This document shows positions 20,481 through 53,836 of a stretch of 64,000 nt of DNA, piece after piece. This DNA is from Clostridia bacterium (lineage in GTDB: Bacteria; Bacillota; Clostridia; Oscillospirales; Acutalibacteraceae), in NCBI GenBank assembly GCA_017537365.1, contig JAFYKZ010000002.1, forward strand, positions 1-64,000, written 5' to 3'. The position numbers and the translations under genes are program-made. Under the pieces are notes generated by a model. That model had not been told where the DNA came from. It did not search any database and worked only from the letters and a program-made list of their open reading frames with translations. How positions within the stretch are numbered: the stretch's first letter is position 1; each line of letters begins with the position of its first letter.

Positions 20481-21497
20481 TTATAGAGTAATTTCTTTAA
20501 ATACCTCCCTTATAGCGTCGGCGCGTTTAATATCGCGCTCATCGGGAGATATTTCTCCGTATTTTCTCATTAGCATATATTTTTGATTTTCTATTAATAT
20601 ATTAAATGCATCAATTTCTGTTTTTATTATGCCCAAGGAAACTCCGAGTTTAATCACAGAAAGCAGACTCATCATTTCTCCACTGTTTAAAATTCGGCAT
20701 CCCTTTAATGTTCCCAATGCTCTGAAAACTGTATCAGAAGCTTTGGTTATATCAAGAGAGTTTCTTAAACTGCGCTCTTTTTCAATGAGACCTGATGCTA
20801 TAATTTTCAGGTTATCTATTGCATTTTTTTCACTAATGCCTAAGGTTATCTGGTTTGAGATTTGATAAAGCGAGGCGGCAGAATTTGTTCCCTCACCGTA
20901 AATTCCTCTAACCGTGAAACCGATTTTATTAATGTTTTCGCGAAGCTCTTTTATTTCACCCGAGCTTTCGCAAAGGGGCAGATGAAGCATAACCGAGGCT
21001 CTGAGCCCTGTACCTAAATTTGTTGGACATTCGGTTAAAAATCCCAACTCGTTATCAAAGGCAAAGGAAAGCTTATCGCAAAGTAAAGTGTCTATTCTTT
21101 CGGCTATATCATAAGCTTTTTCAAGCTGAAAACCCGATAAAATTACCTGAATTCTTATATGGTCTTCTTCGCCTATCATAACGCTGATGCTTTCATCATT
21201 TGATAAAATTATAGCTCTGCCCTCAGGCTTTGATGCAAATTCAGGACTTATAATATGTCTTTCAACCATAGCACCAAGCTCAATCTGAGGCACATCCTTC
21301 ATATCAATGAACTTTAAGGTTTTAGCATAAGGTGTGTGGCTATCAATAATCGCAGATTTAACCTTCTTCTTTAATTCCTCAAGCTCGGATAAGGACATAT
21401 TAGAGGGAAAAGGGATACCGCTTAAATTTCTCGCAAGTCTGATTCTGGTTGAAGCGGCAATATCATAGTCGGGCAGATTAAAATTATTATTGCTCAT
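20481..21497 (-). CDS. mcsB: protein-arginine kinase McsB
   Basis: McsB (338 aa) phosphorylates arginine residues on damaged proteins and on CtsR, marking them for ClpC-ClpP. The ATG at 21497 has GGAGG nine bases upstream; a GTG three codons earlier would abut the Shine-Dalgarno. The phosphagen-kinase fold shows STRIRLARNL near 17, TECPTNLGTGLRASVMLH near 155-172 and RGIYGEG near 200. It overlaps the mcsA stop by 11 bases. Confidence 0.95.
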   Translation of the reverse strand: MSNNNFNLPDYDIAASTRIRLARNLSGIPFPSNMSLSELEELKKKVKSAIIDSHTPYAKTLKFIDMKDVPQIELGAMVERHIISPEFASKPEGRAIILSNDESISVMIGEEDHIRIQVILSGFQLEKAYDIAERIDTLLCDKLSFAFDNELGFLTECPTNLGTGLRASVMLHLPLCESSGEIKELRENINKIGFTVRGIYGEGTNSAASLYQISNQITLGISEKNAIDNLKIIASGLIEKERSLRNSLDITKASDTVFRALGTLKGCRILNSGEMMSLLSVIKLGVSLGIIKTEIDAFNILIENQKYMLMRKYGEISPDERDIKRADAIREVFKEITL

Positions 21498-21987
21498 TTT
21501 TTTCACCCTCCAATTTTCTGATTTTATCTCTTATAACAGCCGCTTGTTCATATTTTTCCTCGCTGACCAATCGGTTTAGTTCAAGCTTTAAATTATCAAT
21601 ACTATCCTCTTCGGGAATAACAGCGAGTGGCGCACGGTTTGGAACTTTTCCTGAGTGGGTTGTAGCCCCGTGAACTCTTTTTAAATAGGGGAGAAGCTCT
21701 GATTTAAAAGTGTTGTAACACTCGGCGCAACCAACTTTTCCTGTTGCGGCTATATCCGAAAAAGCAGAACCGCAAACGGCGCAACGGCGTTTTCCGTCGC
21801 TTAAACCTGTTGTAGCAACATCGCCAAGCATAGATGCTAACATTCCTGCAAGACCTGTTTGAGCAAAACCGCCGAGTCCTTGCTCTGCGGCGCAAATTCC
21901 ACAAAGATTAATTTCTCTAACAACACCATTCACAACCGACTTTATATGAGTAGTTGCGTGGTTTTTACCACATTTTTCACATAACAT
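21487..21987 (-). CDS. mcsA: McsB activator McsA
   Basis: McsA (166 aa) is the zinc-finger activator of McsB. Four CxxC pairs are visible: C3/C6, C29/C32, C69/C72 and C86/C89. A UvrB/UvrC motif sits at about 128-162 (KLELNRLVSEEKYEQAA). It is the second gene of the ctsR operon. Confidence 0.95.
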   Translation of the reverse strand: MLCEKCGKNHATTHIKSVVNGVVREINLCGICAAEQGLGGFAQTGLAGMLASMLGDVATTGLSDGKRRCAVCGSAFSDIAATGKVGCAECYNTFKSELLPYLKRVHGATTHSGKVPNRAPLAVIPEEDSIDNLKLELNRLVSEEKYEQAAVIRDKIRKLEGEKNEQ

Positions 21988-47758: not shown

Positions 47759-48439
47759 TTAGTCAAATTGTTTTCTTAACTTTTCTAGTGCAGATTTTTC
47801 TATTCTTGAAACATAGCTTCTTGAAATATTTAGTTTTTTAGCTATTTCGCGTTGTGTGAGTTCAGGAAAACCGGCTATTCCGTATCGGTATTTAATAATT
47901 TCGGTTTCTCGTTCATCTAAACAGCCATACATAACAACTCTTAATCGTTCAAGCTTTAATTTAGTATCAATTTCGTCTGCAATATCGCGGTTATCGGCGA
48001 TTATATCTATAAGCGTTAAGGTGTTACCTTCTTTGTCGGTATCGATGGGGTCGCTTATAAAAACATCCTGAGCTGATTTTTTTTGGTTTCTGAAAAACAT
48101 CAAAATCTCATTTTCGATACATCGAGAGGCATAGGTTGCAAAGCGAATTCCCTTATCCGATTTATAGGTTGAAACCGCTTTAATAAGGCCGATTGTTCCT
48201 ATCGAAATCAAATCGTCTTGCTCGGCGCCTGTGGCATAGTATTTTTTAACTATATGAGCCACTAGCCTTAAATTGTGTTCAACCAAAGTGTTTCTGGCAT
48301 TAATGTCTCCTGCACGGCTTTTTTCAAAAAGTTCGGCTTCTTTTTTTGCAGAAAGAGGAGGGGGAAAAGCACCAGCACCGCTAACATGAAGAGCAAAATA
48401 GAAGATGGAGGATAATAAATTTAATAAAATTTCAAACAA
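47759..48439 (-). CDS. sigK: RNA polymerase sporulation sigma factor SigK
   Basis: A 226-aa sigma-70 factor matching SigK, the late mother-cell sigma factor. A hydrophobic N-terminal pro-sequence (about 1-20) precedes FPPPLSAKKE. Region 2 includes LVEHNLRLVAHIVKKY near 53, DLISIGTIGLIKA near 76 and FATYASRCIENEI near 98. Region 4 helix-turn-helix is TQREIAKKLNISRSYVSRIE near 197. The gene is uninterrupted, with no skin element. Its presence indicates spore-forming ancestry. Confidence 0.9.
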   Translation of the reverse strand: MFEILLNLLSSIFYFALHVSGAGAFPPPLSAKKEAELFEKSRAGDINARNTLVEHNLRLVAHIVKKYYATGAEQDDLISIGTIGLIKAVSTYKSDKGIRFATYASRCIENEILMFFRNQKKSAQDVFISDPIDTDKEGNTLTLIDIIADNRDIADEIDTKLKLERLRVVMYGCLDERETEIIKYRYGIAGFPELTQREIAKKLNISRSYVSRIEKSALEKLRKQFD

Positions 48440-48606: not shown

Positions 48607-49788
48607 ATGAAAAAATTGGAAAATAAGGTTTGGCTTTCTTCACCTACGATGCATGGAGACGAATTGAAGTATATGCAAAAAGCATACGAAACAAACTGGA
48701 TGTCGACTATCGGAGAAAATATCAACGAAATTGAAAAATCGGTTTGTGAAAAGCTGGGTTGCAAGTATGCAGTTGCTTTAAGTTGCGGAACTTCGGCTTT
48801 GCACCTTGCAATTAAAATAGCAGGGGTTAAAAGCGGTGATAAAGTTTTTTGCAGTGATTTAACTTTTGCGGCAACGGTTAACCCTGTGCTTTATGAAAAG
48901 GCTGTCCCCGTTTTTATTGATACCGAGTATGATACTTGGAATATGGACCCTAAGGCGCTCGAAAAAGCATTTGAGATTTATCCTGATGTTAAGGTTATCG
49001 TTGTTGCTAATCTTTACGGAACACCTGCAAAGTTTGAAGAGATATTAAGTATCGCCGAAAAGCATAATGCAATAGTTGTTGAGGATGCTGCTGAGTCTTT
49101 TGGAGCTACATATAAAAACAAGCAAACAGGAACTTTCGGGAAATATAATATAATTTCCTTTAACGGAAATAAAATTATAACCGGCTCGTCGGGAGGTATG
49201 CTTTTAACTGACGATGAGAAAGCTGCTGAAAACGCTAGAAAATGGTCAACTCAGTCGAGAGAAAACGCTCCTTGGTATCAACACGAGGAGATGGGCTATA
49301 ACTACCGAATGAGTAATGTTATAGCAGGTGTTGTAAGAGGTCAGTTGCCGTATCTTGGAGAGCACATTGCAAAAAAGAAAGAGATTTTTGAGCGTTATAA
49401 AGAAGGCTTAAAAGACTTGCCTGTAACAATGAATCCTTTTGACGAAGAAATTATGGTGCCGAATTACTGGCTTTCTTGCATGTTGATAAATAAAGAGGCT
49501 ATGTGCCATCAGGTTAGAACTGATACTGAAACAAGCTATGTTTCAGAAAAAGGAAAAACCTGTCCTTCCGAAATTTTAGAAATGTTAGCAAAAAATAACG
49601 CGGAGGGCAGACCAATTTGGAAACCTATGCACCTTCAACCGATATATAAAAACAACGATTTTGTTTCGATAGGTTATGATGTTGGCGAGGATATTTTCGA
49701 TAGAGGCTTATGCTTGCCCAGCGATATTAAGATGACTGCCGATGAGCAGAATACTATTATCGAAATTATAAGAGCTTGTTTTAAATGA
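48607..49788 (+). CDS. DegT/DnrJ/EryC1/StrS-family sugar aminotransferase
   Basis: A 393-aa PLP-dependent aminotransferase for keto sugar nucleotides. The N-terminus WLSSPTMHGDELKYM, GTSALHLAIK near 62, VVEDAAESFGA near 159 and the PLP lysine in SFNGNKIITGSSGG near 182-195 are family signatures. The C-terminal GEDIFDRGLCLPS is also typical of 4-amino-sugar forming members. Located upstream of capF and the 2-epimerase, it probably supplies an amino sugar for a surface polysaccharide. Confidence 0.9.
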   Translation: MKKLENKVWLSSPTMHGDELKYMQKAYETNWMSTIGENINEIEKSVCEKLGCKYAVALSCGTSALHLAIKIAGVKSGDKVFCSDLTFAATVNPVLYEKAVPVFIDTEYDTWNMDPKALEKAFEIYPDVKVIVVANLYGTPAKFEEILSIAEKHNAIVVEDAAESFGATYKNKQTGTFGKYNIISFNGNKIITGSSGGMLLTDDEKAAENARKWSTQSRENAPWYQHEEMGYNYRMSNVIAGVVRGQLPYLGEHIAKKKEIFERYKEGLKDLPVTMNPFDEEIMVPNYWLSCMLINKEAMCHQVRTDTETSYVSEKGKTCPSEILEMLAKNNAEGRPIWKPMHLQPIYKNNDFVSIGYDVGEDIFDRGLCLPSDIKMTADEQNTIIEIIRACFK

Positions 49789-49809: not shown

Positions 49810-50750
49810 ATGTATGCGAAATATATAAAGCGCCCACTTGCACTTTTGAAATATTCGCCATGGTGAGAAGCTGTATGAAACCTTGCTTACTAATGAGGAA
49901 TGCGCAAATGCCGTTGATATGGGAGATGCAGATATACTTATTAAAGTAGAGCAGTATGATAAGATTAAACCCATAATAGCTGCGTTAGGTTTTAATGAAA
50001 TTTCCGAGAGCAATCATGAGTTTATCTGGAATAAACCGAATGCTCTTCATTTAGAGCTTCATAAAATGCTAATACCTTCATATAATAAGGATTATTATGC
50101 TTATTTTAAAGATGGTTGGCATTTGGCAAAAAAGACCGATACTACCCGATACGAGCTTTCAGCAGAGGATAATTTTATATACTTATTCACTCATTATGCA
50201 AAGCATTATAGAGACGGCGGTATAGGAATTCGCCATTTGACAGATTTTTATGTATTTTTAAATAAAAATCAGGATATTGATAAAAAGTATATTGAGAAAG
50301 CCTTAAATAAGCTTCAACTTTTAGATTTTTATAAAAATTCTATGCAAACCTTAGCGGTTTGGTTTGATGGTGAAAAGGATACAGAGATTAGATTTTTTAA
50401 CTGCTAAAATAATAGGTAGCGGTTCTTATGGCACGCATGATGCGCATATTATATCTTCTGCTGTTAAAACCTCAAAAACAGTTGAAAATAGTAACAGCGT
50501 TAAGTCAAAAAAGATGATTCCCATGCTTTTTCCAAAATATTCGGTTATGGCAGGAAAGTATTCAATTTTGAAAAAATGCCCTGTTTTGCTGCCATTTGCT
50601 TGGGTTTGGCGTTTTGTTACTGCTATATTTTTCAGACGAGATAATATTAAAACACAAAAAAATGATTTGAAGCTTATGTCGTCAGATAATATTTCCAAAT
50701 ACCAGCAGGAATTAAATTTTGTAGGCTTAGATTTTAATTTCAAGGAGTAA
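49810..50750 (+). pseudogene. composite pseudogene: sugar transferase start / CapE scrap / nucleotidyltransferase
   Basis: A chain of three gene fragments. (1) ATG at 49810 with GAGGT (49796-49800) begins MYAKYIKRPLA, the typical start of an undecaprenyl-phosphate sugar phosphotransferase, and stops at TGA 49864-49866. (2) In another frame, 49853-49924 encodes RHGEKLYETLLTNEE, the hallmark of the CapE C-terminal region. (3) It runs straight into ADILIKVEQYDKIKPI, a nucleotidyltransferase-family (NTP_transf_5) domain lacking its N-terminus. The last fragment is split by a frameshift at the T6 tract 50393-50398; five T would join it to the frame ending at 50750. The fragments suggest two deletions in an ancestral capsule cluster. 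Confidence 0.78.
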
Positions 50751-50753
50751 TAA

Positions 50754-51950
50754 ATGAATATTTTAGTTACAGGCTCTAACGGTTTTGTTGGCAAAAATTT
50801 GGTTTCGGCTTTAAAAAATATAAAAACCGGAAAGGATAAAACAAGACCCGATATTATTATTGATGAAATTTTTGAATATGATATTGATACGGACGAAAGT
50901 TTGTTGGATTCATATTGTTCTAAGGCAGATTTCGTCTTTAATCTTGCGGGTGTTAACCGCCCTCAAAATGCTGAGGAGTTTATGGAGGGAAACTTCGGTT
51001 TTGCTTCAAAATTGTTTGATACTCTTAAAAAAGATAATAACACCTGCCCTATAATGATTTCTTCTTCAATACAAGCCACCTGCATTGGCAGATATGACAG
51101 TGATTACGGAAGAAGCAAAAAAGCAGGGGAGGATTTAAGTTTTGCTTATGGTGAGGAAACCGGTGCAAATGTTTTTGTTTATCGCTTTCCGAATTTGTTT
51201 GGTAAATGGTGCAGACCGAATTATAACAGTGCTGTTGCAACATTTTGCTACAACACAGCTAATGATTTGCCGATAACAATAAATGATAGGGCAATAGAGC
51301 TTGAGCTTTTATATATAGACGATTTGATTTTTGAAATGCTTGATTTGCTAGAAAATAAAGAGCATCGTTGCGAGTTTGACGGTATAAATACTGTTTTAAA
51401 AGAGAACGGAAAATACTGTGCGGCACCTATAACGCATAAGGTAACCTTGGGTGAAATTGCCGATTTGCTCGAAAGTTTTAAGGCTCAACCGAACACCCTT
51501 TTAATGCCTGAAATTGCGGATAATTCTTTTGCTAAAAAGCTTTACAGTACATATCTGAGTTATTTACCAAAAGAAAAGGTTAGTTTTCCATTAAAAATGA
51601 ATGTTGATAACAGAGGTAGTTTTACTGAACTTTTAAAGACAGAAAACTGCGGTCAGTTTAGTGTTAATATTTCGAGACCAGGTATAACAAAGGGTCAGCA
51701 TTGGCATCATTCTAAATGGGAATTTTTTATCGTTGTTTCGGGACACGGGCTTATTGAAGAAAGAAAAATCGGATCTGATGAGGTATTAAAATTTGAGGTT
51801 TCGGGTGATAAAATAGAGGCCGTACACATGCTTCCGGGATATACTCATAACATTATAAATTTGAGCGATACAGAAGATTTGGTAACGCTTATGTGGGCAA
51901 ACGAGCAGTTTAACAAGAACAAGCCCGATACATTTTTCGAAGAGGTGTAA
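50754..51950 (+). CDS. capF: CapF-type bifunctional NAD-dependent reductase/cupin
   Basis: A 398-aa CapF/WbjC-like enzyme of UDP-N-acetyl-L-fucosamine synthesis, acting after CapE. The N-terminal extended SDR domain shows VTGSNGFVGKNL near 5 and LAGVNRP near 65, with a YGRSK-type catalytic pair near 120 (DYGRSKKAGED). The C-terminal cupin has a metal site GQHWHHSKWEFFIVVSG near 305. It begins three bases after the composite pseudogene. CapE itself is missing here. Confidence 0.9.
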   Translation: MNILVTGSNGFVGKNLVSALKNIKTGKDKTRPDIIIDEIFEYDIDTDESLLDSYCSKADFVFNLAGVNRPQNAEEFMEGNFGFASKLFDTLKKDNNTCPIMISSSIQATCIGRYDSDYGRSKKAGEDLSFAYGEETGANVFVYRFPNLFGKWCRPNYNSAVATFCYNTANDLPITINDRAIELELLYIDDLIFEMLDLLENKEHRCEFDGINTVLKENGKYCAAPITHKVTLGEIADLLESFKAQPNTLLMPEIADNSFAKKLYSTYLSYLPKEKVSFPLKMNVDNRGSFTELLKTENCGQFSVNISRPGITKGQHWHHSKWEFFIVVSGHGLIEERKIGSDEVLKFEVSGDKIEAVHMLPGYTHNIINLSDTEDLVTLMWANEQFNKNKPDTFFEEV

Positions 51951-51953
51951 AAA

Positions 51954-53138
51954 ATGGAAATCAAAAAAGATTATTCTGATATTAAATTCAAAGATAACGG
52001 CAAGTTAAAGCTTTTAATAATTGTTGGAACCCGTCCTGAGATTATTCGTCTTGCGGCGGTAATAAAGAAATGCCGCAAATATTTTGACTGTATTTTAGCT
52101 CATACAGGTCAAAATTATGATTATAACCTAAACGGAGTTTTCTTTAAGGATTTAAAGCTTGATAATCCTGATGTTTATATGGATGCGGTTGGTGATGATT
52201 TAGGCGAAACAGTTGGTAATATTATAAATTGTTCTTATAAATTAATGAACGAGATTAAGCCGGATGCTTTGCTTATATTAGGAGATACTAATTCTTGTCT
52301 TTCTGCGATTGCCGCTAAGCGTTTGCATATTCCAATTTTTCATATGGAAGCAGGAAACCGTTGCAAAGATGAATGCTTGCCTGAGGAAACTAATAGAAGA
52401 ATAGTTGATATAATTTCGGATGTTAACTTGGCATATTCAGAACACGCAAGAAGATATTTGCACGAATGTGGTTTACCAAAAGAAAGAACCTATGTTACAG
52501 GCTCGCCAATGGCTGAGGTTTTGCATGAAAATCTAGCTGAAATCGAAAACAGCGATATTCATTCGAAATTAGGTCTTGAAAAGGGCAAATATATTTTGCT
52601 TTCGGCTCATAGAGAGGAAAATATTGATACCGAAAAGAACTTCTTATCTTTATTTAATGCTATTAATAAAATGGCAGAAAAATATGATATGCCGATACTT
52701 TATTCTTGCCATCCTCGTTCTAAAAAGCGTTTGGAAACGAGCGGATTTAAGCTTGATAGCAGAGTTATAAAGCACGAGCCGTTAGGCTTCCATGATTATA
52801 ACTGCTTGCAAATGAACGCTTTTGCAGTTATATCCGATAGCGGAACTTTGCCTGAGGAAAGTTCATTCTTCACCTCAGTGGGTCATCCGTTCCCCGCAGT
52901 TTGCATCAGAACCTCAACCGAGCGTCCTGAGGCACTTGATAAGGCTTGCTTTGTGCTTGCGGGGATAGACGAAAAATCCTTGCTTCAAGCGGTTGAAACA
53001 GCTATAACTGCTAATAATGACGGTGATTTTGGCATACCTGTTCCCAATTACACCGATGAAAATGTTTCAACCAAGGTGGTTAAGATTATTCAGTCTTACA
53101 CAGGAATTGTTGATAAAATGGTATGGAGAAAATATTAA
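51954..53138 (+). CDS. UDP-N-acetylglucosamine 2-epimerase family (CapG/WecB-like)
   Basis: A 394-aa non-hydrolysing UDP-sugar 2-epimerase. Signatures are IIVGTRPEIIRLAAVIKK near 22-39, HTGQNYDYNL near 50, ILGDTNSCLSA near 106, HMEAGNR near 130 and SAHREENI near 220. Downstream of capF it is best read as CapG, the last enzyme in UDP-L-FucNAc formation; WecB activity on UDP-GlcNAc cannot be excluded. It is three bases after capF, so the two are co-translated. Confidence 0.9.
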   Translation: MEIKKDYSDIKFKDNGKLKLLIIVGTRPEIIRLAAVIKKCRKYFDCILAHTGQNYDYNLNGVFFKDLKLDNPDVYMDAVGDDLGETVGNIINCSYKLMNEIKPDALLILGDTNSCLSAIAAKRLHIPIFHMEAGNRCKDECLPEETNRRIVDIISDVNLAYSEHARRYLHECGLPKERTYVTGSPMAEVLHENLAEIENSDIHSKLGLEKGKYILLSAHREENIDTEKNFLSLFNAINKMAEKYDMPILYSCHPRSKKRLETSGFKLDSRVIKHEPLGFHDYNCLQMNAFAVISDSGTLPEESSFFTSVGHPFPAVCIRTSTERPEALDKACFVLAGIDEKSLLQAVETAITANNDGDFGIPVPNYTDENVSTKVVKIIQSYTGIVDKMVWRKY

Positions 53139-53215
53139 AATTTACATTTTATTAATTATGTTAGGGTTGACGGTATTCACCTTAAATGATAAAATAATCT
53201 ACGGTGATTGTTCTA

Positions 53216-53836
53216 ATGGAAATAAAAAACATAATTGCAAAGAATATTGCCGAGCTTAGAAAAGCAAACGATTATACCCAAAGTGATTTAGCGAGTAAGC
53301 TTAATTATTCTGATAAATCGGTTTCCAAATGGGAGAGAGCAGAGGCTATACCTGATGTGGCAGTTTTAAAAGAAATTGCTGATTTGTTTGGTGTATCGCT
53401 TGACTATATGGTTGAGGAAAAACATAAAATCAAAACAAAGGATAAAATTTCTGCTTTTACAAAGCTTCATAACCATGGTTTTATAACAGGTATGAGCATT
53501 TTGCTTGTTTGGCTTTTGGCTATGCTTGGATTTATTATTACAGATTCAATAATAGAAGACTTTAAGTTTCAATGGTTAGCTTTTGTTTATGCTATGCCGA
53601 TAACTTTTATTGTCTGGCTTGTTTTTAATAGCATTTGGTTTAATAAAAGAAGAAATTTTCTTATAATTTCTTTTCTTATGTGGTCTCTTTTATTAACTGC
53701 TTTTATAACTCTTTTGGTTTTTAGTATTAATTTGCCAAAAATATTTGCACTTGGCATCTTAGGTCAAATAATCATAATTCTTTGGTCAAGACTTAAATTC
53801 AAGAAAGAAAACAGGGAAGAAAACAATGAATTATAA
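53216..53836 (+). CDS. XRE-family regulator with membrane helices
   Basis: A 206-aa protein with an N-terminal HTH_3 domain (about 5-60; YTQSDLASKLNYSDKSVSKWER) and four to five hydrophobic helices in the C-terminal part (about 90-195). It may sense a membrane or envelope signal. ATG at 53216 has ACGGTG nine bases upstream; a GTG at 53204 is less likely. It overlaps the following PHP gene by 11 bases. Confidence 0.8.
   Translation: MEIKNIIAKNIAELRKANDYTQSDLASKLNYSDKSVSKWERAEAIPDVAVLKEIADLFGVSLDYMVEEKHKIKTKDKISAFTKLHNHGFITGMSILLVWLLAMLGFIITDSIIEDFKFQWLAFVYAMPITFIVWLVFNSIWFNKRRNFLIISFLMWSLLLTAFITLLVFSINLPKIFALGILGQIIIILWSRLKFKKENREENNEL

Follow-up and report, generated by a model that had tools for sequence, protein, structure and literature searches.

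Probable scar of a resident capsule cluster in a Clostridia genome that carries a second capsule locus beside a split spoIIID

In S. aureus, the enzymes CapE, CapF and CapG catalyse successive steps in the synthesis of UDP-L-FucNAc (PMC3699295). Homologues of all three occur in the genome described here, and in its relatives capE precedes capF and capG. In contrast to S. aureus, however, capE in the window (the whole 64-kb stretch analysed, i.e., the first 64 kb of the 198-kb contig C26) is a 25-codon remnant, and an intact capE is found on another contig. The genome's CapE and CapF also fall below the NCBIfam equivalog cut-offs (519 versus 730 and 348 versus 500, respectively), so that UDP-L-FucNAc as the product is a guess.

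Remnants of this kind are already known, and the scar described below is a modest finding in that respect. The closest precedent found is that of the Salmonella O-antigen clusters B1 and D1, where serial deletions left a wzy remnant after a polymerase copy elsewhere had taken over (PMC3715488); beyond it, the literature on capsule replacement by a second locus offered little else. Both cases combine a remnant within the cluster with a replacement (here a probable one) elsewhere in the genome, but a single polymerase gene is concerned in Salmonella, whereas the whole interior is gone here and the second locus itself is without genes that the first one keeps. The skin- and gin-type elements (PMC5595907, PMC10747680) offer another likeness, namely a sporulation gene that is split, and a large serine recombinase directly next to one of the junctions. 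They differ in that the split gene here is spoIIID, which is not named among the targets in either paper, and in that a capsule locus would be the cargo.

The scar and its intact counterpart

The genome (G000), from a gut member of the Clostridia, comprises 1.72 Mb in 31 contigs and is rated 98% complete. Its closest relative, G060, shares ~90% DNA identity and has a counterpart of the capsule site at the same chromosomal position (contig C22), where neighbours matching those of the window (rplA, a CapA-like gene and sigK to one side; XRE, PHP, LytR and dinB to the other) enclose an intact cluster. This cluster runs from the aminotransferase, whose copy in the window is 92% identical in amino acids, through the sugar transferase and ~15 kb of other genes to capE, NTP_transf_5, capF and capG. 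The interior consists of LicD-type, glycosyltransferase, acyltransferase, pyruvyltransferase and flippase genes together with a likely polymerase that has no Pfam hit. The ancestral order of sugar transferase, capE and nucleotidyltransferase postulated in the initial annotation is thus that of G060, where all three are intact between the aminotransferase and capF. The order capE–NTP_transf_5–capF also occurs in G007, G025 and G036, and a dozen genomes have an aminotransferase adjoining a sugar transferase. The site can also be empty, since in G061 and G080 sigK stands directly beside the XRE gene with no cluster between them. With an intact counterpart at the same site, and with the reading frames in the window truncated or broken, region 49810-50750 is very probably a scar, left where a resident cluster for capsule (surface polysaccharide) synthesis was reduced from ~17 kb to ~0.9 kb.

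Table 1. Features of the capsule site in the window (positions in the 64-kb stretch) and of the split spoIIID (contig coordinates)
Feature	Position	Strand	Evidence
sigK, intact, left flank of the capsule site	47759..48439	-	NCBIfam PRK05803, 301.8 bits (cut-off 252)
DegT/DnrJ-family sugar aminotransferase, intact, first gene of the resident cluster	48607..49788	+	PF01041, E=4e-86
Sugar transferase (Bac_transf) 5' stub, ~13 codons with ribosome-binding leader	49810..49848	+	DNA alignment to G026 and G060 gene starts; PF02397 in intact counterparts
capE fragment RHGEKLYETLLTNEECANAVDMGD, 24-25 codons	49852..49927	+	91% DNA identity to G060 capE, 21432-21507
Near-repeat of 10 bp at the second junction, TATGGGAGAT (G060 capE side TATGGGTGAT)	49918..49927	+	blastn overlap
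NTP_transf_5 (PF14907) pseudogene, 3' two thirds (last 277 codons)	49918..50750	+	94% DNA identity to intact G060 gene
capF-like UDP-sugar epimerase/reductase, intact	50754..51950	+	PF14667/PF01370
capG-like UDP-GlcNAc 2-epimerase (WecB family), intact	51954..53138	+	TIGR00236, 221 bits (cut-off 210)
XRE-family gene, right flank of the capsule site	53213..53836	+	97% to the G060 equivalent in the same place
spoIIID, apparently split by an integrative element; recombinase abuts the 3' half	G000:C10:17963-18088 and G000:C20:6518-8282

Comparison of the window with G060 by blastn resolved three blocks (up to 49,824; 49,852-49,927, capE; and from 49,918 onward, NTP_transf_5), and both flanks of the scar were collinear with G060 at 90-91% DNA identity. 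At the start of the region, an ATG at 49810 with GAGG upstream opens a frame of 18 codons (MYAKYIKRPLALLKYSPW*, stop at codon 19), as the initial annotation had read it. At the protein level the sugar-transferase stub gives a match of 10 residues (tblastn, E=0.3), which is too short for an E-value and not significant alone; at the DNA level, the stub and its leader align with the aminotransferase–sugar transferase junctions of G026 and G060. The stub follows the G026 allele to ~49,848, further than it follows that of G060, so that the capsule type of this species was probably a different one.

The adjoining capE fragment shows 77% amino acid identity, across 26 residues, to the genome's own CapE (tblastn, E=1.9e-9) and covers 33 of 293 profile positions of CapE/FnlA (PF02719, TIGR04130), below the cut-off, i.e., it is not a complete SDR dehydratase. 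It continues in frame into ADILIKVEQ... of the PF14907 domain, of which profile positions 94-248 of 249 remain (Pfam E=8e-27) and the first 93 are gone, so that the domain is not full-length; the description of a 24-codon CapE piece running into a truncated NTP_transf_5 was therefore borne out. Further downstream, a net loss of 2 bp after 50,390 shifts the last 121 codons into another frame, and this single frameshift leaves two open pieces without further stops. It adds to the two deletions, and the region is hence broken at three places rather than the two that had been proposed.

The deletions are called first and second after their junctions, not after their order in time. The first one removed ~16.7 kb between the sugar transferase start and a point close to the capE end, a figure measured on the scale of G060 in a cluster whose content varies between genomes. 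The collapse of a three-gene cluster, as originally envisaged, is in essence what was found, except that ~15 kb of other genes between them were also lost. No clear homology between the deletion ends was detected at the first junction. The second deletion took 542 bp between capE and NTP_transf_5 and left the in-frame fusion. Here the suggestion of short homology held: the junction carries a 10-bp repeat with one mismatch, TATGGG[A/T]GAT (chance 0.0006 for random capE/NTP_transf_5 junctions with <=1 mismatch), and 6 exactly shared bp (chance 0.003), and the second deletion is thus one at short homology, with shared bases beyond chance.

The age of these events was approached by dN/dS relative to G060, which was 0.12 for the NTP_transf_5 remnant, 0.07 for the aminotransferase, 0.07 for capF and 0.03 for capG. 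Within the remnant it was 0.07 before the frameshift and 0.29 after it, the flanking genes ranging from 0.02 to 0.12 and the collapse being too recent for relaxed selection (a dN/dS near 1) to be seen either way. The value of 0.12 means that most of the divergence predates the collapse, which points to a recent event. For the same reason, the intact state of capF, capG and the aminotransferase is weak evidence of selection; it could reflect the short time instead.

A second capsule locus and the split spoIIID

A further capsule locus lies on contig C10 of this genome. Its genes for a sugar transferase, glycosyltransferases, a flippase, a pyruvyltransferase, CapE and NTP_transf_5 are all intact. 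The sugar transferase is preceded by a collapsed aminotransferase in which residues 9-71 are joined to residues 376-396 (hmmsearch, 22.6 bits, three-frame search). Its capF is an 8-codon stub, the sequence past NTP_transf_5 matching the window across the gene end (54 identical positions in a 58-bp alignment), and no capG remnant was found there. Across the genome there is one capF, at the window site, one capG with a single other paralogue (29% identical), one close aminotransferase, one intact NTP_transf_5, and one full CapE-like gene (on C10) besides more distant family members; CapF, CapG and the window-type aminotransferase are intact in the window only. The loci on C10 and C26 are therefore nearly complementary, the sugar transferase, capE, NTP_transf_5, capF and aminotransferase each being present as one intact copy and one remnant. 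The possibility that capE and NTP_transf_5 on C10 are the moved originals of the window remnants was rejected, the two NTP_transf_5 sharing 63% of their amino acids, compared with 94% DNA identity between the window and G060.

The second locus starts ~0.5 kb past a junction that splits spoIIID. Contig C10 is collinear with contig C3 of G060 (89%) in a match that ends at about codon 38 of spoIIID, and the remainder of the gene is found on C20 from ~8,131, directly after the gene for a 539-aa large serine recombinase; further left on C20 lie a MobV-like relaxase and another recombinase. Both spoIIID junctions share ACATA. The collinearity up to spoIIID and the continuation of its second half on C20 establish that C10 belongs to this genome. 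The two contigs are separate in the assembly, and the split gene suggests a single integrative element with the capsule locus within it. With a sporulation gene split and a serine recombinase at the junction, this would be a skin-like gene-intervening element.

Possible causes of the collapse

Several other readings of the region were considered. The 18-codon frame, with its ribosome-binding site and start codon, might be taken for a leader peptide controlling capF and capG; this is extremely improbable and was rejected, its leader and first codons aligning with a junction in the relatives where a full gene follows. The fused frame (TTG at 49883 to 50407) is in frame and open over 174 codons with a dN/dS below 1, and could in principle encode a new protein or a short regulatory NTP_transf_5. 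We consider this very unlikely: positions 1-93 of PF14907 are gone, a frameshift lies downstream, and the low dN/dS is accounted for by divergence that predates the collapse. A search of 70 genus genomes found no other carrier of the capE–NTP_transf_5 fusion; matches to the fused peptide were always split at the junction into separate open frames, and a single conserved protein over the whole region, which the initial annotation had named as the contrary case, was likewise not found, so that this reading was set aside as well. The assembly is fragmented into 31 contigs, and reads of two places might have been joined wrongly. Such an artefact is also very improbable, and was rejected, as just 10 bp are shared at the second junction and hardly any at the first, the scar is collinear with G060 on either side, and no other contig holds a G060-like full capE or NTP_transf_5.

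The cause of the collapse is less certain. The most likely course is takeover by a mobile capsule locus together with deletion of the resident interior, by which one pathway was split between two sites. The resident cluster, of the G060 type and at the sigK–XRE site, lost its interior by the ~16.7-kb deletion, the 542-bp deletion at the 10-bp repeats and the 2-bp loss, with the aminotransferase, capF and capG spared. An integrative element would have brought in the second capsule locus and made the resident interior dispensable. CapE from C10 may now work together with CapF and CapG encoded by what remains of the resident cluster, and perhaps with its aminotransferase; the chance of this dependence in trans we put at not quite even. 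The fuller account, in which the spoIIID-borne locus displaced the resident capsule, both loci decayed reciprocally, and one part of the polysaccharide pathway came to be encoded on the chromosome and the other on an element that is maybe excised during sporulation, is tentative. Plain decay of the resident locus accepts the scar and differs only in cause and function: the whole locus would be dying, the second locus would be unrelated to the loss, and capF, capG and the aminotransferase would merely be undecayed. It has a reasonable claim, if a somewhat less than even one, in that the collapse is recent (remnant dN/dS, one frameshift, no further stops) and intact neighbours are no proof of use; the near-complementary pattern of intact copies and remnants for five genes argues against it.

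If the takeover by a mobile locus is correct, a capsule replacement would have been caught shortly after the event: the interior has gone, yet the NTP_transf_5 remnant retains 94% identity to its intact counterpart in G060, and this one genome also contains recognisable candidates for the locus that displaced the resident one and for the element that brought it. Should the dependence in trans also be true, a mobile capsule locus could persist with an incomplete gene set by way of its recipient's leftover genes.

The split spoIIID may merit a study of its own. In G034, G066, G076, G083 and G087, the 3' half of spoIIID follows directly after a recombinase gene of comparable size (open frames of 514-534 aa), and 5' fragments end near the same codon as in G000. 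In G025, one contig has a capsule cluster that extends from the sugar transferase to capG and, ~5 kb further on, an intact spoIIID (G025:C19:4972-31426). In G000, a frame that resembles the 3' half of sigK is overlapped at its 5' edge by the gene for a 611-aa serine recombinase (G000:C18:10464-12631), this frame being 62% identical to the window's sigK, which is intact. In G001, G074 and G083, sigK matches fall into two halves on different contigs with a break at about residues 106-113, as expected of skin-type elements.
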